The notes below the pieces were generated by a model, which saw only the letters and a program-made list of their open reading frames with translations, had not been told where the DNA came from and ran no database searches. This document shows positions 21,547 to 53,146 of a DNA stretch of 64,000 nucleotides, one piece after another; positions within the stretch are counted from its first letter, which is position 1, and each line of letters opens with the position of its first letter. The stretch covers positions 7,688,001 through 7,752,000 of the forward strand of contig NZ_CP070619.1 in the NCBI RefSeq assembly GCF_017068395.1, in the 5' to 3' direction. Source of the stretch: Rhodococcus pseudokoreensis (GTDB lineage Bacteria > Actinomycetota > Actinomycetes > Mycobacteriales > Mycobacteriaceae). The position numbers were made by a program, and so were the translations under genes.

Positions 21547-23277
21547 TCAGAGGCCGAGATCGGCCTCGAACGCGCCCTGCTCCAGACGCTGCTTGATCGT
21601 CGTCAGGAAGCGGCCGGCGTCGGCACCGTCGACGAGGCGGTGATCGTACGTGAGCGGCAGGTAGCACATCGAGCGGACGCCGATGCTCTCACTGCCGGAC
21701 TCGTCGGTCACGACCACGGGACGCTTGACGATCGCACCGGTTCCGAGCATCGCGGCCTGCGGCGGCACGAGGATCGGGGTGTCGAACAGGGCGCCCTGGC
21801 TGCCGATGTTCGTGATCGTGAACGTGCCACCGGACAGCTCGTCCGGCTTCAGCCCACCGGAGCGGGCGCGCTTGGCGATGTCCGCGATGGCGCGGGCCAG
21901 TCCGGCCAGCGACAGGTCGCCGGCGTTGTGGATCACGGGGGACAGCAGGCCCTGGTCGGTGTCGACCGCGATGCCCAGGTGCTCGGCGTCGTAGTAGGTG
22001 ATCTGCTTGTTCGCCTCGTCGTAGCTGGCGTTGATGTTCGGGTGAGACTTCAGCGCCTCGACGACGGCCTTCGCGAAGAACGGGAGGAACGTGAGCTTGA
22101 CGCCCTCGCGCTCGAGGAAGGTGTTCTTGGCCTGCGCGCGCAGGGCCGCGATCCTGGTGACGTCGATCTCGAAGGTCTGGGTGAGCTGCGCCGTGCTCTG
22201 CAGCGACTCCCGGGTCTTCGTGGCCGTGATCTGGCGAATCCGGTTGGCCTTCTGCGTTGTTCCGCGCAGGTGCGCCAGCTCGGGGCGGACCCCGGCGGAG
22301 GCGGCTGCGGGAGCAGCGGCGGCGGCCGGTGCGGCAGCAGGCGCGGCAGCGGCGGCCGGTGCCTTCTTGGCCTCGGCGGCAGCGAGAACATCCTGCTTAC
22401 GGATGCGGCCACCGACTCCGGTGCCCGTCACCGAGGACAGGTCGACGCCGTTGTCCGCGGCGAGCTTGCGCACCAGCGGGGTGACGTACGGCGTGCTGTC
22501 TCCGGACGTGGCCGCGGCAGCAGGTGCAGCGGCGGCGGGAGCCGGCGCGGATGCTGCCGGTGCGGCGGCCGGAGCCGGAGCGCTCTGGGCGGGTGCGGGC
22601 TTCGCCGGTTCCGGGGCCGGAGCGGGCTTCGCGGGCTCGGGGGTGGGCTCGGGCTTCGGCGCCGGCTTGGCGGCGGGCGCACCCGAACCGATGACGGCGA
22701 GCTGACCGCCGACGGCGACGGTGTCGTCTTCCTCCGCGCTGATCTCGAGGAGCGTGCCTGCGACGGGCGACGGGATCTCCGTGTCGACCTTGTCGGTGGA
22801 CACCTCGACGAGCGGCTCGTCCACGGCGACCTCGTCGCCGACGGCCTTGAGCCAGCGGGTGACGGTGCCCTCGGTGACGGACTCGCCCAGTTCGGGCATG
22901 TTCACCGCGGTGCCCTCGGCGGAACCGCCGGACGCTGCGGGCGCGGGCTCTGCGGCCGGTGCCTCCGCGGCGGGAGCCGGCTCTGCGGCGGGCTCTTCGG
23001 CGGCGGGTGCGGGAGCGGAGTCGGAGGCGGGAGCCTCACCGGCGTCGCCGATCACGGCAAGTTCGCCACCGATTTCGACGGTGTCGTCTTCCTGAGCAAC
23101 GATCTTGCTGAGAACGCCGGCCACGGGAGACGGGATTTCCGTGTCCACCTTGTCCGTGGAGACTTCGAGCAAGGGTTCGTCAACTTCGACCGCGTCTCCT
23201 TCCTGCTTGAGCCACCGCGTGACAGTTCCCTCGGTGACACTCTCACCAAGCGCTGGCATCTGGACGGAGAAGGCCAT
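21547..23277 (-). CDS. dlaT: Dihydrolipoamide acyltransferase E2 with two lipoyl domains
   Basis: E2 core of the pyruvate/branched-chain 2-oxo acid dehydrogenase complex, 576 residues. In mycobacteria it also feeds a peroxiredoxin-linked antioxidant chain. Two lipoyl domains carry [13 protein letters not shown] (Lys43 and Lys163), separated by Ala/Pro-rich linkers. A peripheral-subunit-binding domain follows ([20 protein letters not shown] near 300), then the acyltransferase domain ending in [11 protein letters not shown] (His546, Asp550). ATG 23277 has AGGAG 9 nt upstream. Longer than M. tuberculosis DlaT (553) because of the linkers. Confidence 0.95.
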
Positions 23278-23604
23278 GTCTTTTGACTCCTCGACAGTTG
23301 TGTTCGGGTTGTTGAATTTTGTCGACTTGTGGTCGTGAACCATTGTGCTCGAGATGCACGTGTCTTGCGTCTACTTGCAGGTAATTCCGATTCGTCGTCA
23401 CCCACTCGCTGTGTCGGCGCTCCACATCTTTCCATTGATCCGACGGGCGCGTCCGCCGAGGGGGACCCCCCGGTCACTCCGGTGTGTCGCGACGAAATCC
23501 CTACTGGCCGGTAGTTTGCGTTCGCGGCGGAAACCGGATGTTCGCTGGCAAACTTGGAGGACATCGCGGGCACCGCGCCGCGCACGTACTCGAGGAGGCT
23601 CGAC
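23278..23604. other. 327-bp divergent intergenic region
   Basis: Lies between the starts of dlaT (minus) and the small unknown gene at 23605 (plus), so it must hold both promoters. It is more AT-rich than its flanks near 23290-23400. A short inverted repeat (AGTTTGC/GCAAACT, around 23512-23548) is visible; no known operator, RNA or convincing ORF was recognised. Confidence 0.5.
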
Positions 23605-23943
23605 GTGGGGTTGTTCGACCGTTTCTCGCGGCCTCGGTCCGGCCGATCCCAGGCGTCCCCGGAGGACGCCGCCCATCTCGCGAACTGGACTCGCACGCAC
23701 CTCGGTGTGGAGGCGTATGTGGAACCGCGCACGACAGTGACCGAAGTCACCGTCGTGCTCGTCGCGGCGGACGGTGAGTGGACCCGGCGCCGGGTGGGCG
23801 GCGAACGCGGCGCCCGCAAACTCGGGGAGGATCTCCGCATCCCGGTGTACGACGTCCGCAAGACCGGCTACCCGCAGCGGATGCGTGACCACGACGCACG
23901 GCGCCGCATCGAGCGGAAGCGGGAGCGCGAACGCGACCTGTAG
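23605..23943 (+). CDS. Small conserved actinobacterial protein of unknown function
   Basis: A 112-residue soluble protein starting VGLFDRFSRPRSG. The middle has VTEVTVVLVAADGEWTRRRV and KLGEDLRIPVYDVRKTGYP, suggesting a compact alpha/beta fold, and the C-terminus is a strongly basic helix of Arg, Glu and Lys repeats that could bind nucleic acid. GTG 23605 has a near-ideal GAGGAGG ribosome-binding site 6 nt upstream, so an upstream in-frame start is unlikely. The family is not recognised. It converges on the aminopeptidase gene through a shared terminator cassette. Confidence 0.75.
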   Translation: MGLFDRFSRPRSGRSQASPEDAAHLANWTRTHLGVEAYVEPRTTVTEVTVVLVAADGEWTRRRVGGERGARKLGEDLRIPVYDVRKTGYPQRMRDHDARRRIERKRERERDL

Positions 23944-24014
23944 GCGGCTCCGCCGCCCGTGCGCCTTTCTGGTAGCCGGCACAACCGGAAAGGCGCACGA
24001 GCGCGAAGCGCCTA
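23941..24014. terminator. Three-hairpin terminator cassette, copy A
   Basis: The element runs from the TAG of the upstream gene to the antisense stop of the aminopeptidase gene. Left hairpin GGCGGCTCCGCC, central stem GTGCGCCTTTC/GAAAGGCGCAC with a long loop, right hairpin GGCGC-GAA-GCGCC. Edges match copies B (34260) and C (53078). Confidence 0.85.
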
Positions 24015-25529
24015 CCCGTTGGCGGCGATGTCCTCGATCACCGAGATCATGGTGCGCACCGGAACACCGGTACCGCCGCGGCCGGTGTAGCCCCACGGTC
24101 CGGACGAGTTGTAGGCCGGTCCGGCGACGTCGATGTGCGCCCACTGGACGCCGTCGGCGACGAACTCCTTCAGGTACAGGGCCGCCGCGAGCATGCCGCC
24201 CCAGCGGTGATTCGTGACGTTGGCGAGGTCGGCGATCTTCGAATCGAGGTCCGAGCGCAGTTCGGCGGGCATCGGCATGGCCCACGCGTTCTCGCCGATC
24301 TTCTGGGAGATGGCGGCGACGCGGTCGCGGAACTCGTCGGTGCCCATGACACCGGGGGTTCGGTTGCCCAGTGCCACCATCTGCGCGCCGGTGAGCGTCG
24401 CCGTGTCGATCAGGTAATCGGGATCGTCCTCGCAGGCGCGGACGATGGCGTCGGCGAGGACGAGGCGTCCCTCCGCGTCGGTGTTGATGACCTCGACGGT
24501 GGTTCCGCCGTACTGGGTGAGGACGTCGCCGGGGCGCTGCGCGGTGGACGACGGCATGTTCTCGGCCATCGGGACGGTGGCGGTGACGTCGACGGGCAGT
24601 CCGAGTTTCGCGGCGAGGACCACGGTCGCGACAACGGCTGCGGCGCCGCCCATGTCGGACGTCATGTTTTCCATGCCCGCGGCGGGCTTGATGGAGATGC
24701 CGCCGGTGTCGAAGGTGATGCCCTTGCCGACGAGCGCGACCTTGGGGGCGTTCCGCTTCTTGGCGGCGTAGCTCAGGCGGACCAGTCGCGGCAGCCGGGA
24801 CGAGCCCTTGCCCACGCCGAGGATGCCGCCGTACCCGTTCTTTTCGAGTGCCTTCTCGTCCAGGACCTCGACCTTCAGCCCGGCGTCGGTGCCGAGTGCC
24901 TTTGCGCGGTCGGCGAATTCGGCGGGGAAGAGGTGGCTCGGGGGAGTGTTGACGAATTCGCGTGCGGTGGCGACGGCTTCGGCGATCGCCGACGAGCGCG
25001 CGAGGGTGTCCTTCGACTCCTTCGCGCGAGGGGACGACACCAGCAACTCGACGCGCGACACGGGCTGTGCGTCCGGACCGGGAGCGGACTTCGCGGACTT
25101 GAATTCGGTGAACCGGTACGCGCCGAGCGCGAAACCTTCCGCTGCCGCACCGAGATCGAGCGCGGACAGCGTGGTCGCGACGGTGCCGACACCGCTGAGT
25201 GCCCGCGCCGCGGCACCCGCGGACTTCCGGATCTGCTCGGCGCCCAGCTTCTCGGCCGAACCGAGTCCGACGGCGAGCACACTGTCGACCGGCAGCGCGC
25301 CGGGTGCCGGGATGCGGGTGGTCTCCTCGGCCTTGCCGGAGGCGCCCACAGTGACGAGCGTGTCGAGCAGATCGGTCAGCACCGATTCGTCGACGATGCC
25401 GTCTCCGAGCGCGATTTCGGGGCCGTCCGGGCTCGACGTCAGACCGATCACCAACACGTCCACGCGCTTGCCGACGGTGCCGGCCAGTGCGAGTTGTGGT
25501 CCGAGGGGTCGGGCTGTGCGAGTGCTCAC
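24012..25529 (-). CDS. pepA: Leucyl (cytosol) aminopeptidase, M17 family
   Basis: Two-metal aminopeptidase of 505 residues, acting as a cytosolic hexamer. The M17 signature [14 protein letters not shown] is present, along with [14 protein letters not shown] (metal-binding Lys and Asp) and the C-terminal segment [20 protein letters not shown]. The N-terminal 170 residues form the non-catalytic macrodomain-like part. GTG 25529 has GGAGAGAC upstream. It matches Rv2213 (pepB) in the conserved gene order and is divergent from gcvT. Confidence 0.95.
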
Positions 25530-25642
25530 GGTGTCTCTCCTGCAGCGGTGGGGGGCGGGTGGTGCCGGGTGGCCGACGTCCGTCCCGATGGTAGTGCTCC
25601 GTCGCCGCCCGCTACCCAGTGCGCGGCTACCCGGAGGTCCGA

Positions 25643-25648
25643 TAGGTT
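25643..25648 (+). promoter_or_regulatory. -10 box of a probable leaderless gcvT promoter
   Basis: TAGGTT ends 7 nt before ATG 25656. Confidence 0.5.
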
Positions 25649-25655
25649 GAGGCGC

Positions 25656-26756
25656 ATGACCGAGGAGCAGTTGTCGCAGGGGCCCGTCCACGCCGTCCAC
25701 GTCGAACTCGGGGCCACGTTCGCTCCGTTCGGCGGCTGGGAGATGCCCGTGTCGTATGCCGGCACCGTCGCCGAGCACACCGCGGTCCGCGAATCGGTGG
25801 GAGTCTTCGACGTCAGTCACCTCGGCAAGGCTCTCGTGCGGGGCAGCGGCGCCGCTGCCTTCGTGAACTCGGCGCTGACCAACGACCTCGACAAGATCGG
25901 CCCCGGCAAGGCGCAGTACACGCTGTGTTGCACGCCGTCGGGTGGAGTGATCGACGATCTGATCGCCTATTACGTGAGCCCGGACGAGGTGTTCCTCGTC
26001 CCGAATGCCGCCAACACCGCGGACGTGGTCGCGGCGCTGACCGCCGCGGCGCCCGACGGGATCACGGTGAAGGACCAGCACCGGGACTTCGGCGTGATCG
26101 CCGTGCAGGGCCCGAAGTCGGTGGAGGTGCTCACCGCGCTCGGCCTGCCCACCGACATCGACTACATGGCCTTCGCGGACGCCACCTGGGACGGCGTTCC
26201 CGTCCGTGTCTGCCGCAGCGGGTACACCGGCGAGATCGGGTTCGAACTGCTGCCACGCTGGGACGACAGCGAGAAGTTGTTCCGGGCGGCGGTCGAGCAG
26301 GTCCGCGCCCACGGCGGCCAGGTCGCCGGTCTCGGTGCCCGGGACACGTTGCGCACCGAGATGGGGTACCCGCTGCACGGGCACGAGCTGTCGCTGGAGA
26401 TCTCCCCGCTCGAGGCGCGATGCGGCTGGGCGATCGGCTGGAAGAAGCCGAAGTTCTGGGGCAAGGAGACCCTCGCCGACGAGAAGGCGTCCGGCCCGGC
26501 CCGCAAGCTGTGGGGCATCAAGGCGCTGGACCGCGGGGTCCTGCGCGCCGGTCAGACCGTGCTCCGCGGCGGCGAGTCGATCGGCGAGACCACGTCGGGC
26601 ACGTTCTCGCCCACGCTCAAGGTCGGGATCGCGCTGGCGCTGCTCGATTCCGGGTCCGGGGTGTCGGCCGGAGACGAGATCTCCGTGGACGTCCGGGGGC
26701 GCTCGCTGCGCGCCGAGGTGGTGTCTCCGCCGTTCGTGGAGATCAACACCAAGTAA
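25656..26756 (+). CDS. gcvT: Glycine cleavage system T protein (aminomethyltransferase)
   Basis: Transfers the methylene of the aminomethyl-lipoyl H protein to THF and releases ammonia; 366 residues. Family segments are [47 protein letters not shown] (with the catalytic Asp), [13 protein letters not shown] and the C-terminal [13 protein letters not shown]. It stands apart from other gcv genes, as in M. tuberculosis (Rv2211c), and depends on lipoylation by the lipA/lipB products encoded 5 kb upstream. The next gene, ilvE, follows after 63 bp with its own -10 box. Confidence 0.96.
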
Positions 26757-26806
26757 GCACCGGTCGCGGACGACCTGTCGGCGGCAGGGCGGCGGAAGGC
26801 GTTCGA

Positions 26807-26812
26807 TAAGAT
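26807..26812 (+). promoter_or_regulatory. -10 box of a probable leaderless ilvE promoter
   Basis: TAAGAT ends 7 nt before ATG 26820, and no Shine-Dalgarno is present. Confidence 0.55.
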
Positions 26813-26819
26813 CACGGTC

Positions 26820-27923
26820 ATGACAGGTGTCACCGAGTTCGTTCGCGTCCCGCATCCCGCCCCCACCTCCGACGAGGTACGGCGAGAGATACTGGCGGCG
26901 CCCGGATTCGGCCGGTACTTCACGGACCACATGGCGTCGATCACCTACTCCACCGAGCTCGGCTGGCACGACGCGAAGGTGGAGCCGTACGGGCCGCTCC
27001 AGCTCGACCCCGCCGCGATGGTCCTGCACTACGGACAGGCCATCTTCGAGGGTCTGAAGGCGTACCGGCAGCCGGACGGCGGCATCTCGACGTTCCGTAT
27101 CGAGGCGAACGCCGAGCGGCTCGCGACGTCGGCTCGCCGGCTCGCGATGCCGGAGCTGCCGGAGGAGTTGTTCGTCAAGTCGATCACCGAACTGCTCGAG
27201 CTGGATCACGAGTGGGTGCCCGCGGCCGGTGGTGAGGACGCGCTGTACCTGCGCCCGTTCATGTTCTCCACCGAGGCCGGTCTCGGGGTGCGTCCGGCCG
27301 ACGAGTACCGCTACCTGCTGATCGCCTCGCCCGCGGGTGCGTACTTCCCGCGGGGAGTGAAGCCGGTCAGCGTGTGGCTGTCGACGGAGTACGTCCGGGC
27401 CGCACCCGGCGGCACCGGTGCCGCCAAGTTCGCGGGCAACTACGCGGCGTCGCTCCTCGCGCAGGCGCAGGCCGCCGACGAGGGTTGCGACCAGGTGGTG
27501 TGGCTCGACGCCATCGAGCGGTCGTACGTGGAGGAGATGGGCGGCATGAACCTCTTCTTCGTGTTCGGCTCCGGATCCGACGCCCGCCTCGTGACGCCGT
27601 CCCTGTCCGGTTCGCTGCTGCCGGGCATCACCCGCAATTCGCTGCTGACCCTCGCGATCGACGCCGGTTTCGCGGTGGAGGAGCGGCGGATCAGCACCGA
27701 TGAATGGCGCACCAAGACGAAGTCCGGCGAGATCACCGAGGTGTTCGCGTGCGGCACGGCGGCCGTCATCACGCCCGTCGGCCGGGTCAAGTCCGCCGAA
27801 GGTGAATTCACGATCGCCGACGGCGAGCCCGGCGAGGTCACCATGGCCCTGCGCGACACGCTGACCGGAATTCAGCGGGGAACGTTCGCCGACACCCACG
27901 GCTGGATGACCAAACTACGCTGA
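26820..27923 (+). CDS. ilvE: Branched-chain amino acid aminotransferase
   Basis: PLP-dependent fold-IV transaminase for the last step of Leu, Ile and Val synthesis; 367 residues, cytosolic. The Schiff-base lysine is Lys203 in [15 protein letters not shown]. Other conserved parts are [15 protein letters not shown], the phosphate-binding [10 protein letters not shown] and [19 protein letters not shown]. It converges with cobS (18-bp gap). Identical placement to Rv2210c. Confidence 0.97.
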
Positions 27924-27940
27924 GCCGTTTCGGCGGTCGG

Positions 27941-28681
27941 TCAGAACGCGAGACCGATCGCCGAGACGGTGACGGTGATCTCGAGCGCGGCTCCGAGCAC
28001 GTCACCGTTCAAACCGGCGAATCGCCGGACGCAGTGGGCCACCAGCAGTGTGGTGAGTGTCAGTGCGACCGCAACGACGACCGGTCCCTGCCACCACGGC
28101 GCCGTGCACCACGCCGCCGCCGCGACGAGCGGGACGGTCCAGGCGAGACCGGTCCACGGCGACTGGGTCTCGGCGACCAGGGCGCCGAACCCTTCCGTGG
28201 AGGACGCAGGGATTCCGCGGCGGCAGGCGTACACGACCGCCACCCGCCCGGCTGCCACCGCCACGGCCACACACGCGAATTGTCCTGCGGCGGCGAGAGA
28301 TCCGAATGCCAGCCCCTGCGCGCCCAGGCAGATCACGAGGGCGCACACCCCGAACGGTCCCGCGCCGCCGCTGTGCATCACGGCCCGCGCCCGCTCCGGC
28401 GGCCCGTAGCAGCCGAGCCCGTCGACGGTGTCGGACAGTCCGTCGACGTGCATGCCGCGGGTGGCGAGGGCATGCGCACCGACCGTCACCAGGCCGGCGA
28501 GGGCGGGATCGAGACCGGCGGACACGAGCACCCACAGCAGCCCCCCGGCCAAGGCGCCGAGCGCGATCCCGGTCACCGGCGCCGCCCGGATCGCGCGGCG
28601 GCCCGCCGCACGGTCGACGGTATCCGGCCCGCGCAGGGGGAGGACGGTCAGCCAGGAGAAGGCGAGCAGCACGCCCGTCAC
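27941..28681 (-). CDS. cobS: Adenosylcobinamide-GDP ribazoletransferase (cobalamin synthase)
   Basis: Polytopic membrane enzyme (246 residues, about six helices) that joins alpha-ribazole to adenosylcobinamide-GDP. The metal-binding segment GMHVDGLSDTVDGLGCYG is characteristic, followed by MHSGGAGPFGVCAL. GTG 28681 starts two bases after the cobT stop, so translation is coupled. It is the last gene of the cobUTS operon. Confidence 0.93.
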   Translation of the reverse strand: MTGVLLAFSWLTVLPLRGPDTVDRAAGRRAIRAAPVTGIALGALAGGLLWVLVSAGLDPALAGLVTVGAHALATRGMHVDGLSDTVDGLGCYGPPERARAVMHSGGAGPFGVCALVICLGAQGLAFGSLAAAGQFACVAVAVAAGRVAVVYACRRGIPASSTEGFGALVAETQSPWTGLAWTVPLVAAAAWCTAPWWQGPVVVAVALTLTTLLVAHCVRRFAGLNGDVLGAALEITVTVSAIGLAF

Positions 28682-28683
28682 GG

Positions 28684-29838
28684 TCAGCCCGCGGTGTCGG
28701 CGGCGGAGTCGGTCCCGGTGCCGGAGTCGGTCCCGGTGCCGGAGTCGGTTCCGGTGTCGGAGCCGTCTTCGGCGTCGCGGGTGCTGACCCCGGCCTCCGC
28801 GAACGTCGCCATCTCCGCGAGAGTTGCGACGGCACCCTGCAGGATCGGCAGCGCGCTGACGGCGCCGGACCCCTCGCCGAGCCGCATGTCGAGTTCGAGG
28901 AGCGGGTCGAGTTGCAAATGCTTCAGCGCGATCGTGTGGGCCGGTTCCGTGGAACGGTGGCCGGCCAGCCACCACGCGCGGGCGCCGGGCGCCAATTCCT
29001 CCGCCACCATCGCGGCCGCCGTCACGACGACGCCGTCGAGGATCACCGGGGTCTTGCGCGCGGAGGCCTGCGCGAGGAACCCGGCCATCGCGGCGAGGTC
29101 GGCGCCCGACACCGTGCGCAGCAGCGCAACCGTGTCCCGGACCACCGGCCGGGCGCGGCGCATCGCGTCGCGGATCGCCGCAGTCTTCCGGATCCAGCCG
29201 GCGTCGTCGACCCCGGTACCCCGGCCGACCGCGGCGACCGGTTCGGTGTCCGTCAGCGCGGCGATGAGAACGGTGGCCGGTGTGGTGTTGCCGATTCCCA
29301 TGTCGCCGGCGATCAACAGGTCTGCGCCGGAATCGATTTCGGAGTCGGCGATCGACCGTCCCGCCTCGATGGCCTGCAGGGTCTCTTCGTGTGTGAGCGC
29401 GTCCTCGCGGTCGATCGCACCCGACGAGCGCCGAATCTTGAACGCGGACACCGACGGATCCGTGTCGCCGTCCACCGACAGGTCGACGACGCGCACGCTC
29501 GCGCCCGCCCGGTTCGCGAGTGCGTTGACGGCCGCCCCGCCGCCGACGAAGTTGGCGACCATCTGCGCTGTCACCTCGGGCGGATATGCGGAGACACCGG
29601 TTCGTGCCACGCCGTGGTCGCCGGCGAACACCACCACCCGTGCCCGTGCGAACGGGGCGGGCGGGCAGACGCCCTGGCAGGCCGCGGCCCAGCACGCCAG
29701 CGTCTCCAGACGGCCGAGCGATCCGGCCGGTTTGGTGAGCTGGAGCTGACGGGCCTCGGCCTGCGCGCGAACCCCTTCGTCGGGTGGGGTGACGGGTTCG
29801 AACCGACCGGGGTCGGTGCTCACGGACTCGCTGGTCAC
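28684..29838 (-). CDS. cobT: Nicotinate-nucleotide:dimethylbenzimidazole phosphoribosyltransferase
   Basis: Activates the lower-ligand base of cobalamin; 384 residues from GTG 29838. Recognised by [43 protein letters not shown] and the catalytic-Glu region [18 protein letters not shown]. The C-terminus carries an extra Asp/Thr/Ser/Gly-rich tail encoded by an 18-bp tandem repeat (28705-28758), outside the folded enzyme. The start overlaps the cobU stop by 4 bp, and GAGAGG lies 6 nt upstream. An extension to 29874 would add twelve residues without support. Confidence 0.94.
28705..28758. repeat. Three 18-bp tandem repeats in the 3' end of cobT
   Basis: Unit GGAGTCGGTCCCGGTGCC is present at 28705-28722 and 28723-28740, with a third copy at 28741-28758 differing at two bases. 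On the coding strand each adds a Gly/Thr/Asp/Ser hexapeptide, so the number can vary in frame. Confidence 0.9.
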
Positions 29839-30479
29839 GCTTGGCCTCTCGCTCGAGTGGAGTCGGCCCCGCACGACGCACGTGCGGGATCGTCTTTCAG
29901 GGTCATGGTCAGGCCGGCCACGACGAGGATCACGCGATCGCAGACCTGCGCGAGCCGCGCGTTGAGGGCGCCGATCTCGTCGCGGAACAGGCGACCGGAC
30001 CGGGTCTCGGGGATGACGCCGAGTCCCACCTCGGGAGTCACCAGCACGAGTGCCCCGCGGTAGTCGCGGACGCTCGCGACGAGGTCGTCCGCGCGGGGGG
30101 TGATGGTGCCCCGCGGCGAATCCCAGGCTGCGGTGCCGTCGAGTTCGACGGTGAGCCAGGTGCCGAGATCGTCGACGAGGGTGGCTGCCGCGTCGGTGGG
30201 GGAACGCAGTTGATCGGCGAGGTCGCGGCGGTACGCGGTTTCCACGGTGACCCAGCTGTCGGGGCGCCGATCGCGGTGCTCGGCGACCCGGTGCTCCCAG
30301 TCGTGGTCGTCGGGGTCGCGGTGGCTGGTGGCGACGTAACGCACCAGTCCTGCCCCGGCCAGGGCCTGCGTCAGTTCCTCGGCGTGCGCGGATTTACCGG
30401 ACCGTGCACCACCGAGTACCAGCGTTCGCGAGGGCTGGTGCGGGTGACCCGGGTGGTCCGGGGGAACGGCGGTGGGCAC
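29835..30479 (-). CDS. cobU: Adenosylcobinamide kinase/GTP:adenosylcobinamide-phosphate guanylyltransferase
   Basis: Bifunctional enzyme of the nucleotide-loop pathway, about 214 residues. The P-loop GGARSGKS near residue 25 is the kinase site, [20 protein letters not shown] contains the guanylylated His, and [21 protein letters not shown] is typical. Start choice: GTG 30479, with TAGCGT 8 nt upstream on the minus strand, or TTG 30497. The first residues ([17 protein letters not shown]) are an unusual extension. It heads the coupled cobU-cobT-cobS operon; in M. tuberculosis cobU is not part of this cluster. Confidence 0.9.
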
Positions 30480-30498
30480 GGAGGGAAACGCTACCAAC

Positions 30499-30552
30499 CC
30501 GCCAACGTGGCAGTATTTTGACGAAGAACGTCAATCCCGCCACTGTTGGCGG
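30499..30552. promoter_or_regulatory. 54-bp nested inverted repeat between cobU and a divergent gene
   Basis: Outer arms CCGCCAACGTGGC (30499-30511) and GCCACTGTTGGCGG (30539-30552) pair apart from one bulged base. An inner TTGACG/CGTCAA pair (30518-30523, 30529-30534) has a 5-nt loop. It lies directly upstream of the cobU -10 region and 28 bp before the start of the divergent small gene. It may be an operator for both genes or an RNA hairpin. Confidence 0.6.
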
Positions 30553-30579
30553 GAAGTGGGCGGGCGGAGAATTTCAGCC

Positions 30580-30795
30580 ATGACCGAATTCCTCGTCCTC
30601 GTCGCACTACTCCTCGTGCTGCAAGCGGCCGTGACATACGCCGGTCGGCACCTGGGTCCACTCCACCCGCGGCTGCGAAACAGCTACCGCGACAACTTCT
30701 TCCGGCCTGCCGATCCCTTGACGGACCTGTCGCACGACCGCGACGCCGAATTGGGGCGACTGCTCGCCGAGACGCACCGCGCGCCCCACAACTGA
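30580..30795 (+). CDS. Small single-span membrane protein
   Basis: A 71-residue protein. [20 protein letters not shown] is an N-terminal membrane helix; the rest is polar, with [20 protein letters not shown] and a charged tail. No family is recognised and no catalytic motif is visible. ATG 30580 has GGCGGAG about 8-14 nt upstream. It converges with the DUF3043 gene with a 3-bp gap and is divergent from cobU across a large inverted repeat, so a shared regulator is possible. Confidence 0.65.
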
Positions 30796-30798
30796 GCG

Positions 30799-31455
30799 TC
30801 AGATGGCGTCGCCGGGCCGCACCCGCGGCTTGGGGGCCCGCAACTTGCGGATCTGCGACGCCCGCACGAACGCGTACCAGCCGAGCTTGAAACCGCCGTC
30901 GGGGGTGTCCGGGAAGCGTTCCCGCACCTGGTTGTTGATCTTGCGGCCGAGCCAGACGCCCTCGATGGCCATGAACATCATCATGATGAGCATGGCGAGC
31001 GTCACGATCGCCTGCAGTGCCGGGCTGACGAACATCGCCATGATGAGAACCAGCGCCAGCGGCATGAACAGACCGACCAGGTTGCGCCGGGCGTCGACGA
31101 TGTCCCGGACGTACGCGCGCACGGGGCCCTTGTCGCGCGGGAGGAGGTACTTGTCCTCGCCTGCGAGCATGCGGGTACGCCGCTCGGCGGCGGTTGCGCG
31201 TCGCTCCGCCGCGGCAACCTTGCGCTCTTCCTTGCTGCCGCGGGTGGCCTTCTTGCGGGCCCGGGCCTCTTTCGCGGTCAGGGGTGCGGGCGCGACCGGT
31301 CCGCGGCGCTTCGACTCTGCGTCACGTCGCTTGGGGGTCGGGCGGCCCTTGCCCGCCTGCTCGACGGAATCCGCCTCCTGGGCCGTCGACGACTCGGCGA
31401 CCTCGGCGTCCCGCTTGTCTGAATTGTCCGAATCACCGCGGCGTAGCAATTTCAC
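30799..31455 (-). CDS. DUF3043 membrane protein (Rv2206 homologue)
   Basis: A 218-residue protein. A long charged N-terminal region (Lys/Arg/Glu/Ala-rich, probably disordered or coiled, residues 1-95) precedes [20 protein letters not shown], the DUF3043 signature. Two helices follow (about 127-146 and 149-166), with a basic C-terminus. Function unknown; it is conserved in mycolic-acid bacteria. GTG 31455 has TAGTCT 6 nt upstream on the minus strand (31462-31467), so a leaderless transcript is likely. Confidence 0.85.
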
Positions 31456-31531
31456 CCTTCCAGACTATGGGAAGACGCCGCCGTGTGGAAAACCGCCCTC
31501 ACATCGAAATGCCGGGTCGGGCCCGTGGCCA

Positions 31532-31537
31532 TACACT
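31532..31537 (+). promoter_or_regulatory. -10 box of a probable leaderless glycerate kinase promoter
   Basis: TACACT ends 6 nt before ATG 31544. It is divergent from the DUF3043 promoter, whose -10 lies at 31462-31467. Confidence 0.55.
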
Positions 31538-31543
31538 TCGCCG

Positions 31544-32620
31544 ATGCGAGTGTTGATCGCACCGGACTCCTTCGGTGAGACGCTGACCGCCGTCGAGGCG
31601 ACTGCCGCCATCGCGGCGGGATGGTCGGCGGTGCGCCCGGACGACCAGCTGATCGAGGCCCCGCAGTCCGACGGCGGCCCGGGCTTCGTGGATGTGGTCG
31701 CGGCCGCGGGCGGCACCATCCGGACCACTGTGGTCGAAGGACCCCTCGGTGTCGACGTCCCCGCCCGCTGGCTCCTCGACGGCACCGACGCCTACCTCGA
31801 ATCCGCCCAGGCCTGCGGACTCGGACTGCTCGGCGGACCGCCGACGCCCCGCACCGCCCGCGACGCGCACAGTCGAGGCGTCGGGCAACTCGTGGTGGCG
31901 GCCCTCGACGCCGGGGCCCGCAGAATCGTCGTCGGTCTCGGCGGCAGCAGCTGCACCGACGGCGGGCGCGGCCTCGTCGAAACCCTCGCGCAGGGATTCG
32001 GCAGCGCGGATGCAGCTGTCGCCCGGCTGCGTGCGGTGGAACTGGTGGCCGCGACCGACGTCGAACACCCGCTGCTCGGCGAACACGGTGCCGCCCGCGT
32101 GTTCGGACCGCAGAAGGGTGCCGACCCCGAGACCGTCGAGTTCCTCGAGGAGCGGAACACCGCGTGGGCCGGGCAACTGCACCGCGTGACCGCCCGGGAC
32201 GTCGCGGCGGAGGCCGGTGCCGGAGCCGCGGGTGGCATCGGCGCCGCGCTGCTCGCGCTCGGCGGCACTCGCGAATCCGGCGCCCACGTGGTCGCCCAGC
32301 GCACCCGGCAGGACCGGCAACTCGCCTCCGCGCAGCTCGTCATCACCGGGGAAGGTCGCCTCGACCAGCAGTCGCTGCGCGGCAAACTCGTGATCGCGCT
32401 CGCCGCCGCCGCCCGCAGGCGGGCCATCGCGACACTCGTCCTGGCCGGGCAGGTGCTCCTCGACACGGCCGATCTGGACAGCGCGGGCATCGACGACGCG
32501 CTGTCCCTGGTGGACCACGCCGGCTCGGTCGAACTCGCGATGTCGGACGCATACGCGCAGCTGAGAGACCTCGCCGCCGCCGCGGCCCGCGGATGGGACG
32601 GCGGAGCCGCACGCCAGTAA
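31544..32620 (+). CDS. glxK: Glycerate kinase (GlxK/GarK type)
   Basis: Phosphorylates D-glycerate to 2- or 3-phosphoglycerate; 358 residues. The N-terminal [20 protein letters not shown] and the motif [15 protein letters not shown] identify glycerate kinase type 1, and [17 protein letters not shown] is the C-terminal nucleotide-site motif. The usual family sequence APDSFKGSL reads APDSFGETL here, so the conserved lysine is replaced. That change could alter activity; it matches the position of Rv2205c in M. tuberculosis. The next gene starts 138 bp later with its own signals. Confidence 0.88.
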
Positions 32621-32758
32621 CCCGAAACCCAGACGTCGGATACCATGGACGTGGATCGATCTGCGGACGCTGCCGCAGTGAATGGAACCCGGGAATAAGT
32701 CGGGCGCGGAGTACCGTTGAAGCGTTCACGGGTTTGTTACGAACTACAGGGAGAGCCC

Positions 32759-33109
32759 ATGACTGTGCAGAACGAGACCGCCGTCCACGGCGTCAAGATG
32801 ACCGAAGCCGCGTCCGCCAAGGCGAAGGCGCTGCTCGATCAGGAAGGTCGTGACGACCTCGCACTGCGTATCGCCGTGCAACCCGGCGGCTGCGCAGGAC
32901 TGCGTTACCAGCTGTTCTTCGACGACCGCAACCTGGACGGCGACCTGATCGTGGACTTCGGTGGCGTCGCCCTCGCGGTGGACCGGATGAGCGCGCCGTA
33001 CGTCGAGGGTGCCTCGATCGACTTCGTCGACACCATCGAGAAGCAGGGTTTCACGATCGACAACCCCAACGCGACCGGTTCGTGCGCCTGCGGCGACTCC
33101 TTCAACTGA
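32759..33109 (+). CDS. erpA: HesB/IscA-type iron-sulfur cluster carrier (ErpA-like)
   Basis: A-type carrier delivering Fe-S clusters to apoenzymes such as LipA; 116 residues. The three cluster cysteines are visible in PGGCAGLRYQL and GSCACGDSFN. ATG 32759 has AGGGAGAG about 6 nt upstream; an extension to 32717 lacks support. It matches Rv2204c. It is followed by a strong intrinsic terminator, so it is transcribed alone. Confidence 0.92.
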   Translation: MTVQNETAVHGVKMTEAASAKAKALLDQEGRDDLALRIAVQPGGCAGLRYQLFFDDRNLDGDLIVDFGGVALAVDRMSAPYVEGASIDFVDTIEKQGFTIDNPNATGSCACGDSFN

Positions 33110-33138
33110 GTCCCGGGCCGAAGTACAACTGAATCGAC

Positions 33139-33181
33139 AAGTCTGACGCGGCGCCGACCGGCTGCCGCGTCAGACTTTTTT
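33139..33181 (+). terminator. Canonical intrinsic terminator after the Fe-S carrier gene
   Basis: A perfect 14-bp stem (33139-33152 with 33164-33177), an 11-nt loop and a run of T from 33176 to 33181. It is the clearest T-tract terminator in the window, 30 bp after the stop. Confidence 0.93.
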
Positions 33182-33251
33182 CGTGCCCGACCTCGCCGTC
33201 CCGCGACCTCGTGCTGCCGACCGAACATGGCGGTACGCCGGGGTACGGTGA

Positions 33252-34259
<1,008 letters not shown>

Positions 34260-34262
<3 letters not shown>

Positions 34263-34334
34263 GGCGGCTCCGCCGCCCGTGAGTGGTTGACGAGTCCCTG
34301 GACTCGTCAACCACTCACGGGCGCGAAGCGCCTA
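34260..34334. terminator. Three-hairpin terminator cassette, copy B
   Basis: It begins with the adoK TAA and ends with the antisense asnB stop. The central stem (34276-34321) is a perfect 22-bp inverted repeat with a 2-nt loop. Flanks are the hairpins GGCGGCTCCGCC and GGCGC-GAA-GCGCC, as in copy A. Confidence 0.92.
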
Positions 34335-36257
34335 GATCGAGACCGGGTACGCCGGCTCGGCGATTTCCGGCACGATGCGGTTCTCCACGAAGATGCCGTG
34401 CCAGACCATGAAGATCAGCACGGTCCACAGGCGACGGCTGTGGTCGGACACGCCGTCCCGGTGGTCGTTCAGCATCTTCGTGATCGCGGCCTTGTCGAGC
34501 AGGTGATCGGTGCCCGAGGCCGCGATCTGCTCGTGCGCCCAGTCGAACAGTTCGGTGCCGCGCAGCCAGTGCCGCAACGGCACCGGGAAACCCAGCTTCG
34601 CCCGGTGGAGCACGTGCCCGGGGACGATGCCCTCCAGCGCCTGACGCAGCGCGTACTTGGTGGTGCTCTTGGTGATCTTCTGGTCCAGCGGCACCCGCGA
34701 CGCCACCTCGAAGACCTCCGGATCGAGGAACGGCACCCGCAGTTCGAGCGAATTGGCCATCGTCATCTTGTCGGCCTTGACCAGGATGTCGCCGCGCAAC
34801 CACGTGAACAGGTCCAGGTGCTGCATCCGGGCCACCGGATCCCACCCCTGCGACTGCGCGTAGATCGGGTCGGTGACGTCACGGTGCGTCCACTCGGGGC
34901 GGAAGTCGCGCAGGACGGCGCGCAACTGCGCATCGTTGAAGCTGCGCGCGTTGCCGTAGTACCGCTCCTCGAGAGTCAGCGAACCGCGATTGAGCAGGCT
35001 CTTGCCGCGGGTGCCGTCGGGGATGCGCTCGGACAGCTTGCCGGCGGCCCTGCGCAGCCCCTTGGGCAGGTACTCGAACGGCTTCAGCGAAATCGGCTCG
35101 CGGTAGATGGTGTAACCGCCGAACAGTTCGTCGGCGCCCTCACCGGACAGCACGACCTTGACGTGCTTGCGTGCCTCCTTCGCGACGAACCACAGCGGAA
35201 CCAGCGCGGGGTCGGCGACCGGGTCGTCGAGGTACCACACGATTTCGGGGATGGCGGCAGCGAACTCGGCGGGGCTCACCACCTTCACCACGTGCCGCGC
35301 GCCGATCGCCTCGGCGGATTCGGCCGCGACGTCGACCTCGGAGTAGCCCTCACGCTCGAAACCGGTGGTGAACGTGATCAGGTTCGGGTTGTGGCGCATC
35401 GCGAGCGCCGCGATGGCCGTCGAGTCGATGCCGCCGGACAGGAACGAGCCGACGGTCACGTCGGCGCGCATGTGCTTGGCGACCGAATCCTCGAGGGCCT
35501 CCGCGATCTCGCGGTACCGGGCCTGCTCGGTACCCGCGGCGAACGGACGCACCGGGAACGTGGGTGCGAAATAGCGGGTGATCACGGGTTCTTCACCCGG
35601 GCGCACCCGCGCGAAGCACCCGGATTCGAGCCGGCGGATCTGCTTGTGGAGCGTTTCCGGTTCCGGCACGTACTGGAGGACGGTGTAGTGCTCGACCGCA
35701 CGCGGATCGAGTTCGGTGCCGATGCCGATCAGGCTCGCCAGTTCCAGCAGGCTCTTCTTCTCGCTGCCGAACGCGGTGCCGCCGGTGCCCGTCGCCAGGA
35801 ACAGCGGTTTGATGCCGAACGGATCGCGGGCGATGAACAACTCCCGCGTCTCGGTGTCCCAGATCGCGAACGCGAACATGCCGCGCAGGCGACGGACGGC
35901 GTCCTCACCCCAGTAGTGGAACGCGGCGACGATGGCCTCGCTGTCGCCCTCGGTGACGAACTGCGCACCGAATTGCTCGGCGAGCTCGGCCCGCACCTCG
36001 AGGTAGTTGTAGATCTCGCCGTTGAACGTCAGCGCGTAGCGTTCCGGATTCTCCGCCGGACCCCACCGCAGCGGCTGGTGGGAGTGTTCGATGTCGATGA
36101 TCGACAGCCGATTGAACCCGAAGACCAGGTGGTCGTCGTGCCAGGTCCCGTGCTCGTCCGGCCCACGGTGCCGCAGGCAGTGCATCGCCTGGTCGACCTG
36201 TGAGACGGCGTTGTCGCTGGTTTCTCCAGAGGTCAGTAGCCCGAGCAGTCCGCACAC
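34332..36257 (-). CDS. asnB: Glutamine-dependent asparagine synthetase
   Basis: Makes asparagine from aspartate, ATP and glutamine; 641 residues, cytosolic. The class-II amidotransferase domain starts with the nucleophile Cys2 (VCGLLGLL after GTG 36257) and includes RHRGPDEHG and TFNGEIYNY. The synthetase P-loop SGGIDS is at 274-279, and [13 protein letters not shown] follows. Processed Cys2 implies removal of the initiator Met. It may also amidate envelope components, as reported for mycobacterial AsnB homologues. It is divergent from ctaC over 278 bp with no recognised operator. Confidence 0.95.
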
Positions 36258-38071: not shown

Positions 38072-38116
38072 ACGGCGGAGGCGCCGAATCCCTCTGGGGT
38101 TCGGCGCCTCCGCCGT
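38072..38116. terminator. Bidirectional terminator between ctaF and the TetR gene
   Basis: A perfect 17-bp stem (38072-38088 with 38100-38116) with an 11-nt loop, between two convergent genes whose stops are at 38055 and 38123. Confidence 0.88.
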
Positions 38117-47877: not shown

Positions 47878-48340
47878 GGCTCAGAGCGTATGGACGGGCA
47901 CCGACAGACCCGCCCGGGGAGCCCGGAGAGACGAGGATCACACTGCCCGTTTGCGGGCTGCGGCGGCGGGTGGAGGGGCGGCCGGGCGAGCGACTCGGAA
48001 CGTGGGTTTCAGGGGCGGGGGGACTGCGGGCTGCGGGTCCGGCGCGCCTGTCGAACAGGGTCCGCGCCACCCCCGTTGAACAGCGGGAATGTGGCGCGAG
48101 TCCAGGAAGGGGAGTCGCGGGGCTACGCGAAATCCCCACTCCCGCTGTCGAAAAGCGAACGGAAACATACCGCTTGTTATCCAGTCGTTACCGAATGTGG
48201 GTATCGCGCGCCCGCAAACCCCGAAACGGTGCAAACGGACACTTTCCGCGTGTTCCGGTCGACATCGGGGTATTCCATTTCGTAACCTTCCTGAGACCTA
48301 GCGGAGTCTCGCAGCCCCAACACCGGGGCAGCATCGCTAG
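47878..48340. other. Intergenic region upstream of the riboswitch
   Basis: About 460 bp without a convincing gene. It holds the leaderless promoter of the nuclease gene (-10 at 47885-47890 on the minus strand) and, toward 48170-48300, a lower-GC stretch expected to contain the promoter for the riboswitch transcript. The piece 48277-48348 is related to 49266-49337 in front of the second NlpC gene. A 98-codon minus ORF here lacks any support. Confidence 0.6.
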
Positions 48341-48487
48341 TCACCGCCTAATCGGCCACTCGCGAGAGCGGTCGTACCGGGAACCCAAGTTTCTACTGGG
48401 GTGAATCCCGCCGGGACGTCCTCACGCACCGGTGGGTAGGGCTGATCTTCCCAGCCCGAACCCGTCAGCTAACTCGGTCGGCGGATG
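48341..48487 (+). ncRNA. c-di-AMP riboswitch (ydaO/yuaA class)
   Basis: Conserved elements appear in order: CCGCCTAATCGG, GGTCGTACCGGGAACCC, GGGGTGAATCCC, GTAGGG and CCCGAACCCGTCAGCTAACT, ending GGTCGGCGG. P1 pairs 48344-48348 with 48480-48484. The GGGAACC, GGTGAAT and GACAGCTAAC-type segments are the hallmark of the ydaO class. It lies 30 bp before an NlpC/P60 gene, a known actinobacterial target. Binding of c-di-AMP normally turns expression off. Confidence 0.93.
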
Positions 48488-48513
48488 AATGGAAGAAACG
48501 GAGTACCCCTTTC

Positions 48514-49059
48514 GTGGCGTCACAAGTTTCCAAGCGGAATGTGCGACGGGCAGTCGTCGCCGGCGCGCTCGCAGTCGGAGCGCTCACCGCTACCGCGGCC
48601 CCCGCGGCCGCAGACCCCATCACCATCCCCGGTGTCGGAACCTTCGAGATCCCGGGTGTCGTCATCCCGCAGATCCCCGGTGTCCCGAACCTGCCCGTGC
48701 CCCCCGCGCCGGGCAGCACCGCAGGCGACAAGGCCGTTCAGGCCGCTCAGACCAAGCTCGGCTCGCCGTACGTCTACGGCGCCGCAGGTCCCAACTCGTT
48801 CGACTGCTCCGGCCTGGTGCAGTGGGCGTTCAAGCAGGCCGGACTGAACCTGCCGCGCACCAGCTACGCGCAGGCGGCCGCCGGTACTCCGGTGTCGCAG
48901 TCCGATCTCCGCCCCGGCGACGTGATCTCCTTCTACGGCGGCTCGCACTCGGGCATCTACGCCGGCAACGGCAACGTGATCCACGCCTCCACCGAGGGTC
49001 AGCCCGTCAAGTTGGCGCCCATCGCGTCCATGCCTTTCGACGGCGCACGCCGCTACTGA
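48514..49059 (+). CDS. Secreted NlpC/P60 cell-wall endopeptidase under riboswitch control
   Basis: Peptidoglycan D,L-endopeptidase of 181 residues. A signal peptide (RAVVAGALAVGALTATAAPA, cleavage near AAAD) is followed by a Pro/Ile/Gly-rich linker and the catalytic domain, with Cys in NSFDCSGLVQWAF, His in GSHSGIYAGNG and a third polar residue in VIHAST. The domain is of the RipB/RipD type. GTG 48514 has GGAG about 10 nt upstream. Expression is probably tied to osmotic or cell-wall state through c-di-AMP. Confidence 0.92.
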   Translation: MASQVSKRNVRRAVVAGALAVGALTATAAPAAADPITIPGVGTFEIPGVVIPQIPGVPNLPVPPAPGSTAGDKAVQAAQTKLGSPYVYGAAGPNSFDCSGLVQWAFKQAGLNLPRTSYAQAAAGTPVSQSDLRPGDVISFYGGSHSGIYAGNGNVIHASTEGQPVKLAPIASMPFDGARRY

Positions 49060-51952: not shown

Positions 51953-53080
51953 ATGCGCCGAACCCTGTTGGTGACGAACGATTTTCCGCCACGACCCGGC
52001 GGAATTCAGTCGTACCTGCACACCTTCGCCAAGCACCTGCCCGCCGACGACCTGGTCGTCTACGCCCCGCGCTGGCGCGGCGACTCGCACATCAAGTTCG
52101 ATGCGCGGCAACCGTTTCAGGTCGTCCGGCACCCCACCACCCTGATGGTGCCGACACCGTTCGTCGCCCGCCGCGCCACCAGGCTGCTCGCCGAACACGA
52201 CTGCAACGGCGTCTGGTTCGGCGCAGCGGCCCCGCTCGCCCTGCTCAGTTCGACGCTGCGCCGCGCCGGAGCGGAACGGGTGGTCGCGAGCACCCACGGG
52301 CACGAGGTCGGCTGGTCGATGCTCCCCGCCGCCCGCCAGGCCCTCGGCCGGATCGGCGACGACACCGACGTCGTCACGTACGTCAGCCGCTACACCCGCG
52401 GCCGATTCGCGTCCGCATTCGGCGCCGGTGCGGCACTCGAGCACCTCCCGCCCGGAGTCGACACCGACCTGTTCACCCCGGACAGCGGGGCGAGGTCCGA
52501 ACTGCGCGCCCGGTACGGGCTGGGGGACCGCCCGACGATCCTGTGCCTGTCCCGGCTCGTGCCGCGCAAGGGCCAGGACATCCTCATCAGGGCGCTCCCG
52601 AACATCCGCGAACACGTCGACGGCGCCGTCCTCGTGATCGTCGGCGGCGGACCCTACGAGGACCGCCTGCGCTCCCTCGCCCGCTCGGCCGGCGTCGAGG
52701 ACCACGTCGTGTTCACGGGAACGGTGCCGTCCGCGGAGCTGGCGGCGCACCACACGATCGCCGACGTGTTCGCGATGCCCTGCCGCACGCGGGGCGCGGG
52801 ACTCGACGTGGAAGGCCTCGGCATCGTGTTCCTCGAGGCGTCGGCCTCCGGTGTCCCGGTCATCGCCGGACAGTCCGGCGGCGCCCCGGAAACGGTGCGG
52901 CAGAACGAAACCGGGATGGTCGTGGACGGCACGTCGGTGGCCGAGGTCGCGCGATCGGTGATCGCGGTGCTGTCCGATCGCGACCGGGCGGCGGCGATGG
53001 GCGCGGCCGGCCGGGACTGGGTCAAGGCGCAGTGGCGTTGGGACGTGCTCGCCGCGAAGCTGCAGTCCCTCCTGGCGTGA
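51953..53080 (+). CDS. pimB: Phosphatidylinositol monomannoside mannosyltransferase
   Basis: GT4-family (GT-B fold) enzyme adding the second mannose (alpha-1,6) to phosphatidylinositol mannoside at the cytoplasmic membrane face; 375 residues. N-terminal LLVTNDFPPRPGGIQSYLH and C-terminal GLDVEGLGIVFLEASASGVP (the EX7E donor site) match PimB' (Rv2188c); CLSRLVPRKGQD binds the nucleotide sugar. It is the entry to PIM, lipomannan and LAM synthesis. It ends in terminator cassette C. Confidence 0.93.
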   Translation: MRRTLLVTNDFPPRPGGIQSYLHTFAKHLPADDLVVYAPRWRGDSHIKFDARQPFQVVRHPTTLMVPTPFVARRATRLLAEHDCNGVWFGAAAPLALLSSTLRRAGAERVVASTHGHEVGWSMLPAARQALGRIGDDTDVVTYVSRYTRGRFASAFGAGAALEHLPPGVDTDLFTPDSGARSELRARYGLGDRPTILCLSRLVPRKGQDILIRALPNIREHVDGAVLVIVGGGPYEDRLRSLARSAGVEDHVVFTGTVPSAELAAHHTIADVFAMPCRTRGAGLDVEGLGIVFLEASASGVPVIAGQSGGAPETVRQNETGMVVDGTSVAEVARSVIAVLSDRDRAAAMGAAGRDWVKAQWRWDVLAAKLQSLLA

Positions 53081-53146
53081 CCGCCCCGTGAGTACTTCTC
53101 AACCGCGGGCGGTTAACAAGTACTTACGAGCGCCGGAGGCGCACTA
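53078..53146. terminator. Three-hairpin terminator cassette, copy C
   Basis: It runs from the pimB TGA to the antisense fadD15 stop. The central stem GTGAGTACTT/AAGTACTTAC has one mismatch and nests AACCGC/GCGGTT. The right hairpin is GCGCC-GGA-GGCGC, a sequence variant of the other copies; the left edge CCGCCCCGTGAGT matches copy B. Confidence 0.8.

Follow-up and report, generated by a model that had tools for sequence, protein, structure and literature searches.

Dispersed palindromes set on the stop codons of convergent Rhodococcus genes as candidate two-way terminators

Three convergent gene pairs in the window, by which we mean the whole 64,000-nucleotide stretch of Rhodococcus pseudokoreensis DNA analysed here, end in related elements at positions 23941-24014, 34260-34334 and 53078-53146, as the original prediction had held. 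What kind of sequence closes two genes at once? A mobile or conversion-spread miniature element and a selected bidirectional terminator module had both been proposed, together with the idea that insertion of the element would redefine protein C-termini.

Anatomy of the three elements

The features of the three sites are given below. For the first element, both stop codons and the right small hairpin were read from the sequence; the right hairpin of the third element was read from sequence and fold.

34260-34334, unstranded: whole element with A core, between the PfkB-family kinase and asparagine synthase genes; 95.6 bits with the covariance model R1
33288-34262, plus: PfkB-family kinase gene, enzyme class supported by Pfam
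34332-36257, minus: asparagine synthase gene, enzyme class supported by Pfam
34260-34262, plus: TAA, stop codon of the plus gene
34263-34277, plus: left small hairpin GGCGGC-TCC-GCCGCC, which competes with the long stem
34274-34323, unstranded: central palindrome of core family A, two 24-nt arms, 100% complementary
34320-34332, unstranded: right small hairpin GGCGC-GAA-GCGCC
34332-34334, minus: stop of the minus gene, reading CTA on the plus strand
23941-24014, unstranded: C-core element; R1 76.5 bits
23941-23943, plus: TAG, stop of the plus gene at the C-core element
24012-24014, minus: CTA, stop of the M17 aminopeptidase gene at the C-core element
53078-53146, unstranded: B-core element with reduced left hairpin; R1 39.6 and 40.2 bits on its two strands
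53078-53080, plus: TGA, stop of the GT4 glycosyltransferase gene at the B-core element
53086-53129, unstranded: B-core palindrome of the third element, arms of two different variants, pairing imperfect
53130-53142, unstranded: right small hairpin GCGCC-GGA-GGCGC of the third element
53144-53146, minus: CTA, stop of the AMP-binding enzyme gene at the B-core element

The element at 34260-34334 has the order TAA, GGCGGCTCCGCC ... GCGCGAAGCGC, CTA, with 69 bases after the TAA preceding the CTA. At 23941-24014 the order is TAG (its G common to GGCGG) ... GCGCGAAGCGC, CTA, and at 53078-53146 it is TGA, a CCGCC remnant ... GCGCCGGAGGCGC, CTA. On each side of all three copies the element edge is the stop of one gene, as predicted. 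We take the genes to be adoK, asnB, pepA, pimB and fadD15, names assigned from mycobacterial synteny. Among the best 80 of 428 relatives, R. jostii has the closest named adoK locus (95% protein identity). A Pfam search of the small ORF before 23941 gives nothing, and in the gene caller's 1295-aa minus ORF (24012-27899) Pfam support covers residues 836-1285 only, so some calls are wrong.

The central stem had been described as free between fixed edges. The window copies do differ inside, but the stem is not free; the copies look unrelated because each holds a different dispersed core family (A at 34260, C at 23940 and B at 53078) between similar edges. The proposed right hairpin is GCGCGAAGCGC in 12 of 30 copies (counted by eye) and a compensated variant in others; a few copies have none. 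The three hairpins themselves are one of two competing folds. The minimum-energy fold of the copies at 34260 and 23941 is instead a long single stem on both strands, with which the flank hairpins merge, while on the plus strand of the third copy (53078) a different fold wins. RNA folding z-scores of the three window copies are -11.1, -5.9 and -3.6 on the plus strand and -10.9, -6.8 and -2.9 on the minus strand.

The folds of the window elements contain a GC-rich hairpin, as in a canonical intrinsic terminator; a U tract after the hairpin was not found in the three sequences. Neither the 23941 nor the 34260 site is among the predictions of a consensus terminator scan of 23000-35000, and an Rfam scan of the 64-kb window gave no match at or above the gathering score at the elements. 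The sole Rfam match in the window is a c-di-AMP (ydaO/yuaA) riboswitch on the plus strand at 48335-48499 (74 bits, cut-off 38), directly upstream of the ORF at 48514-49059.

A dispersed family at gene 3' ends

The 19-mer GGCGGCTCCGCCGCCCGTG occurs in 31 exact copies in the 9.87-Mb genome, 17 and 14 per strand, while its reversed control occurs 0 times. A 26-row alignment gives a consensus of ~74 nt, TAGGCGGCTCCGCC-GCCCGTG[C/A]GTGGTTAACGAGTC-loop-ACTCGTTAACCAC[G/T]CACGGGC-GCGAAGCGCC-T, in which the left hairpin GGCGGC-TCC-GCCGCC is kept in 25 of the 26 rows, 25 of these having been selected for that arm. The model R1 was built from 25 of the 30 fetched exact copies (the 31st was not among the fetched loci) and the 53078 copy, leaving out L009, L019, L023, L026 and L028, whose right ends are degenerate. 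It finds 37 matches of at least 33 bits in 80 stretches of 20 kb spaced evenly along the 8.73-Mb contig, which extrapolates to ~200 elements per chromosome; the three window copies that bring the tally to 40 belong to the training set of the model. Another search pattern, TAGGCGSNNNNSCGCC, was dropped for its wrong hairpin spacing (5 matches against 65 in its control).

Five core families with similar outer arms were distinguished, namely A (GTGGTTAACGAGTC), B (GTGAGTACTTGTTAACCGC), C (GTGCGCCTTTCTGG), D (GTGAGTGGCAAAGCGTGC) and E (GAACGTACC). A scan of 1.664 Mb, made independently of R1, yielded 122 strong hairpins. The five core patterns account for 40 of them (B 20, D 8, A 6, C 4, E 2). Of the 82 that match none of these patterns, some group with D or E, or make up a further small family. 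No strong hairpin appears in 20 mono-shuffled stretches, compared with 27 in the same real stretches. The window also holds a strong palindrome of no named family at 38072-38116 (21-nt arms, 95% complementary), between convergent genes whose ends are 38055 and 38123.

The strong hairpins are concentrated between convergent genes: 63 are convergent, 39 tandem, 6 divergent and 14 coding, set against 264 convergent, 801 tandem and 261 divergent gene pairs (1326 in total) in the same sample. The odds ratio for convergent junctions versus the rest is 7.1, treating hairpins as one per junction. Among 234 convergent junctions whose gaps range from -60 to 400, 83 surpass the 99th percentile of coding controls of the same size, and 23 of these 83 hold an R1 match of at least 23 bits. 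For R1 itself, the check on convergent excess that came with the original prediction gives 20 of 40 matches of at least 33 bits at convergent junctions against 264 of 1326 gene pairs. This outcome does not refute the prediction. The family also occurs at tandem 3' ends (16 of 40); the remaining four matches are called divergent by the home-made gene caller, at least one of them (L128) apparently in error, and 36 of the 40 lie at 3' ends.

By region, R1 has 0 matches in 12 end stretches (240 kb) and 37 in 68 central ones, with boundaries drawn after the matches were known, while strong hairpins of any kind do occur toward the contig ends (12 in 240 kb versus 102 in 1360 kb). In 160 kb sampled from the other five contigs the best R1 match reaches only 14.1 bits, and no match outside contig C6 was obtained genome-wide among the 150 scored of 12750 candidates. 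The R1 elements are concentrated in the central part of this chromosome contig, with none found in its sampled ends or in what was sampled of C1-C5, as if tied to the older part of the genome.

The sense frame is the best upstream coding frame in 25 of the 30 fetched exact copies, with small margins between frames, and the antisense frame scores best in the remaining five. Of the 25 sense-frame genes 23 end in a TAG flush with the element, one in a flush TAA and one in neither; in the background, TAG makes up 24% of stops (TGA 909, TAG 324, TAA 115). TAG at the start of a palindrome implies CTA at its end, and a single symmetric element can therefore close both genes of a convergent pair. A copies typically carry a stop at each edge, whereas in B copies the stops lie mostly inside the palindrome (median offset -6.5), and at the pimB locus of genome G027 reading continues to a TGA inside the B core. 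Flush stops do not show that insertion created them, and the proposed redefinition of C-termini finds no support at adoK. In 16 listed Rhodococcus and Prescottella orthologues the AdoK end shifts by at most one residue, whether the next hairpin is A, C-like, unrelated or absent; Hoyosella AdoK, followed by no hairpin, is five residues longer.

An excess of stop codons over all six frames is not a general feature, as families C and D are without it. The B consensus (e.g. 53086-53129) carries stops in all three frames of both strands, and all six are present in 15 of 19 copies scanned. B copies average stops in 5.74 of 6 frames and shuffled palindromes in 2.95; because the B copies are related to each other, however, they count as one observation.

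Orthologous junctions and short-term change

At the adoK/asnB junction a strong hairpin is present in 51 of the 68 species scored with both genes, while control windows of the same length inside adoK reach that score in 4 of 68. The survey scored 68 of 81 loci, the relatives kept being the best 80 of 428; a name table covers 52 of the 80, and unnamed loci were counted as "other". The sequence of the hairpin changes completely between species. An A core is found in the window and in R. jostii, tibetensis, erythropolis, qingshengii and oryzae, a C core with similar flanks in Prescottella agglutinans, the C-like GTGTGCCTTTTGGG in ruber, an unrelated hairpin in marinonascens and plain hairpins in many Nocardia; several others have no hairpin. 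As 17 of the 68 junctions are without a strong one, the hairpin is dispensable at this place.

Fixed edges around a variable core, as originally described, can be seen between species at the pepA junction. Among the matches listed, the window and jostii have the C core, tibetensis an A core with a closely similar right flank, P. agglutinans a C-like core, and qingshengii a palindrome whose outer arms are of C type and whose inner arms are B-like. In marinonascens the core is absent (TAGGCGCCCGGGCCGCCTA); the presence of a core in P. agglutinans leads us to read this absence as a deletion. Several other relatives are without the frame. At the pimB slot, 10 of 28 genus genomes have a B core and G024 has a degenerate one; the rest show other hairpins or none. 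The slot, and often some hairpin, persists while its sequence is replaced.

R1 at an E-value of 1e-5 gives matches in 23 of the 28 genus genomes and 0 in five, and 12 rich genomes have 89-144 matches each (both strands counted, among 150 scored). An order-wide search returned 1 of 150 genomes, our own, under stricter filters with 32 candidates scored per genome, which miss weak relatives; P. agglutinans carries C-core relatives though this search did not return it.

For change over shorter times we compared the 30 best R1 loci of G005 (29 distinct, as L245 duplicates L237) with G000. In 22 cases there is an element in G000 with both flanks aligned. L232, L239 and L241 align on one side only, L249 matches elsewhere, and L225, L248 and L250 find no match in the G000 DNA examined. 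For base-by-base comparison, 21 orthologue pairs were picked as R1 matches in both members and are by themselves no measure of occupancy; their median flank identity is 0.923. Divergence per site is 0.107 in cores versus 0.074 in flanks. Seven base pairs in the 21 pairs changed on both sides and kept Watson-Crick pairing, three more changed on both sides without pairing in both species, and 42 one-sided changes keep Watson-Crick pairing in one species only, six of them being G-U in the other. The loops look inverted in 3 of the 21 pairs. In the pimB B core, three pairs changed on both sides among ten orthologues (8 distinct), and the covariation score is 0.088, where shuffles give 0.050 and sliding gives no more than 0.045; two of five measures lie within the shuffle range (two-sided pairs matched by 73 of 500 shuffles, pair types by 389 of 500). 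A transition/transversion shift as a sign of conversion between loci was not shown (core 48/42 versus flank 916/1152, p = 0.10), and the finding that 56 of 90 core differences lie between states common in the family is suggestive only.

An alignment of 349 kb contains 40 indel pieces of 25-250 nt, and none of them is a precise gain or loss of a palindrome. Two imprecise differences in the same alignment hold a family palindrome. At about 10946 of L256, compared with L276, G005 carries a stretch of 141 nt, E palindrome included, that G000 lacks, and the boundaries of this stretch lie off the palindrome; at about 2358-2383, in a complex region, G005 is longer by several hundred bases next to the element, and these contain a second A-type palindrome. 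Of 58 convergent junctions 47 were mapped, 11 of them anchors. At 26 of the 36 non-anchor junctions neither genome has a hairpin with a score of at least 29; presence differs at two, and the hairpins concerned lie outside the families.

Alternative explanations and a probable role

The proposed mobile miniature element is unsupported on the time scale tested, as most element positions of G005 are also occupied in G000 and no precise gain or loss was found in 349 kb; moreover, matches cluster toward the middle of the chromosome, and a search of the genome for a Y1 transposase found none. The selected bidirectional terminator module is the better-supported half of the proposal, given the odds ratio at convergent junctions and the 51 versus 4 of 68 at adoK/asnB. 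The three sites would belong to a set of dispersed GC-rich palindromes that occurs across the clade and closes genes at the 3' end, mostly between convergent genes, and we consider it probable from their sequence that these are old, mainly vertically inherited two-way terminators or 3'-end protectors without a U tract, with a REP-like uniformity of sequence. Against this reading stand the missing U tract, the faster divergence of cores, the few compensatory changes, the tandem and divergent matches and the 17 hairpin-less adoK junctions.

A gene entering an A-type element would first reach its stop codon, next a small hairpin with a UCC or UUC loop, and finally the long hairpin. Since the element is an inverted repeat, the opposite gene would encounter these parts in the same succession on the other strand. 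The ribosome would halt at the element edge while the long stem may fold on leaving RNA polymerase and, on both strands, either stop the polymerase or fix and protect the 3' end. In view of the missing U tract, this might be U-less termination, or Rho-assisted release with the stem acting as an exonuclease stop. In Streptomyces clavuligerus, mapping has defined a class of structured 3' ends without a U tract, 353 of 535 structured ends according to the accessible text of PMC8269248. These are likewise GC-rich hairpins used from both strands; they were mapped as RNA ends, whereas the Rhodococcus element is known from sequence, and the part of that paper available to us makes no mention of repeated sequence families. 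The paired DNA-uptake-sequence terminators of Haemophilus and Neisseria (PMC5217627 and PMC2267715, as far as available) resemble the element in having a dispersed repeat in both arms and uniform gene-end hairpins, but in Rhodococcus the repeat is the whole palindrome.

The likeness of unlinked loci would go back to a REP-like spread of a few core families long ago, followed by mainly vertical inheritance; because unlinked copies are near-identical, an ancient dispersal is still needed. Copies may then have diversified by arm correction and loop inversion, as expected of template switching in replication, for which arm homogenisation and spacer inversion are reported signatures in the accessible portions of PMC8604942 and PMC8794818, and by occasional loss or replacement of the core within a kept frame. 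Alternatively, convergent junctions of this Rhodococcus clade may keep the frame (a stop and a small UYC-loop hairpin per side) while the long palindrome is exchanged between unlinked loci by conversion-like copying. We regard this as possible though improbable; if true, the genome would maintain a limited common stock of terminator cores with no transposase devoted to it.

An unlikely alternative, by our estimate, is a mobile palindrome of the REP/BIME type, in which two GTAG-tagged hairpins stand head to head around a self-complementary spacer, are spread by a transposase without host function and are tolerated at 3' ends since insertion elsewhere harms genes. Its appeal lies in the layout. 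The GTAG-tagged REP dimers and BIME-like elements of other bacteria (Di Nocera et al. 2013, PMC3733652, available text) are short head-to-head hairpins, many with outward GTAG, around structured spacers with complementary ends; they adjoin convergent and tandem 3' ends, and often their ends supply the TAG stop, a property for which published precedent thus exists. The strings rhodococc, actinobact and mycobacter do not occur in the main text of that paper. The small hairpins of our element (6-bp stem, 3-nt loop) fall within the REP definition of a 6-13 bp stem and a small loop, 22 of 30 copies start with GTAG, and a G precedes TAG at 22 of 26 elements versus 159 of 324 stops in the background. 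The tag is, however, not specific: in 1.66 Mb, GTAG plus a hairpin shows hardly any enrichment (30 of 6267 cases against a median of 0.0039 for NNNG), and TTAG and CTAG are higher. Our genome gives no match to Y1 (PF01797) and no Y1/RAYT transposase was found in it; Y1 is present in 12 of 28 genus genomes, yet it is absent from the element-rich G000, G010, G016, G024 and G027, and eight fetched Y1 loci have no R1 match. The mostly shared positions in G005 and G000, the lack of any precise insertion in the 349 kb aligned and the unrelated hairpins that fill the same slots in relatives also speak against this explanation; a further difference from GTAG REPs is that the spacer itself belongs to one of several families of dispersed palindromes. 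The layout of the element is REP-like, but the genome search found no transposase and GTAG is not a specific tag, so we do not file it as a REP family.

Perfect dyads at convergent junctions would also suit a site acting at the DNA level (protein binding, gyrase or a cruciform) that relieves supercoiling between convergent genes, and E. coli REPs are described as gyrase targets in the available text of PMC3733652. A sequence-specific site would not permit at least five unrelated cores to fill the same role, and 16 of 40 R1 matches lie at tandem junctions, which makes this very unlikely. The least probable account, to our minds barely credible, is that ordinary terminators without common origin were made alike by independent selection for the best stem. 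Hairpins are indeed general at convergent junctions here, with 82 of the 122 outside the five core patterns (some of them clustering with D or E), but 31 exact 19-mers against 0 in the control, extending into the ~74-nt consensus, and inner-arm and loop sequence common beyond pairing needs contradict it.

No description of this element in Rhodococcus was found in open-licence PMC text, read mostly as titles and starts of abstracts, and searching that text for the core strings returned no paper. Read as probable two-way terminators, the elements show a bacterium closing many convergent pairs with few repeated symmetric elements set on stop codons. The orthologous series, with its A/C swap, C-plus-B hybrid, core loss and loop inversion, is a usable natural data set on how long RNA stems stay paired while mutating and on how REP-like families disperse where no transposase is found. 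The elements are also candidate compact two-way terminators for Rhodococcus, a biotechnology host.

A collapsed element lies at 6466-6556 of locus L113. In minus-strand reading it is GTAGGCGCTTCGCGCC-CGTGCGTGCC-GCCTAC, with one flank and one core arm only, and it resembles a deletion derivative.
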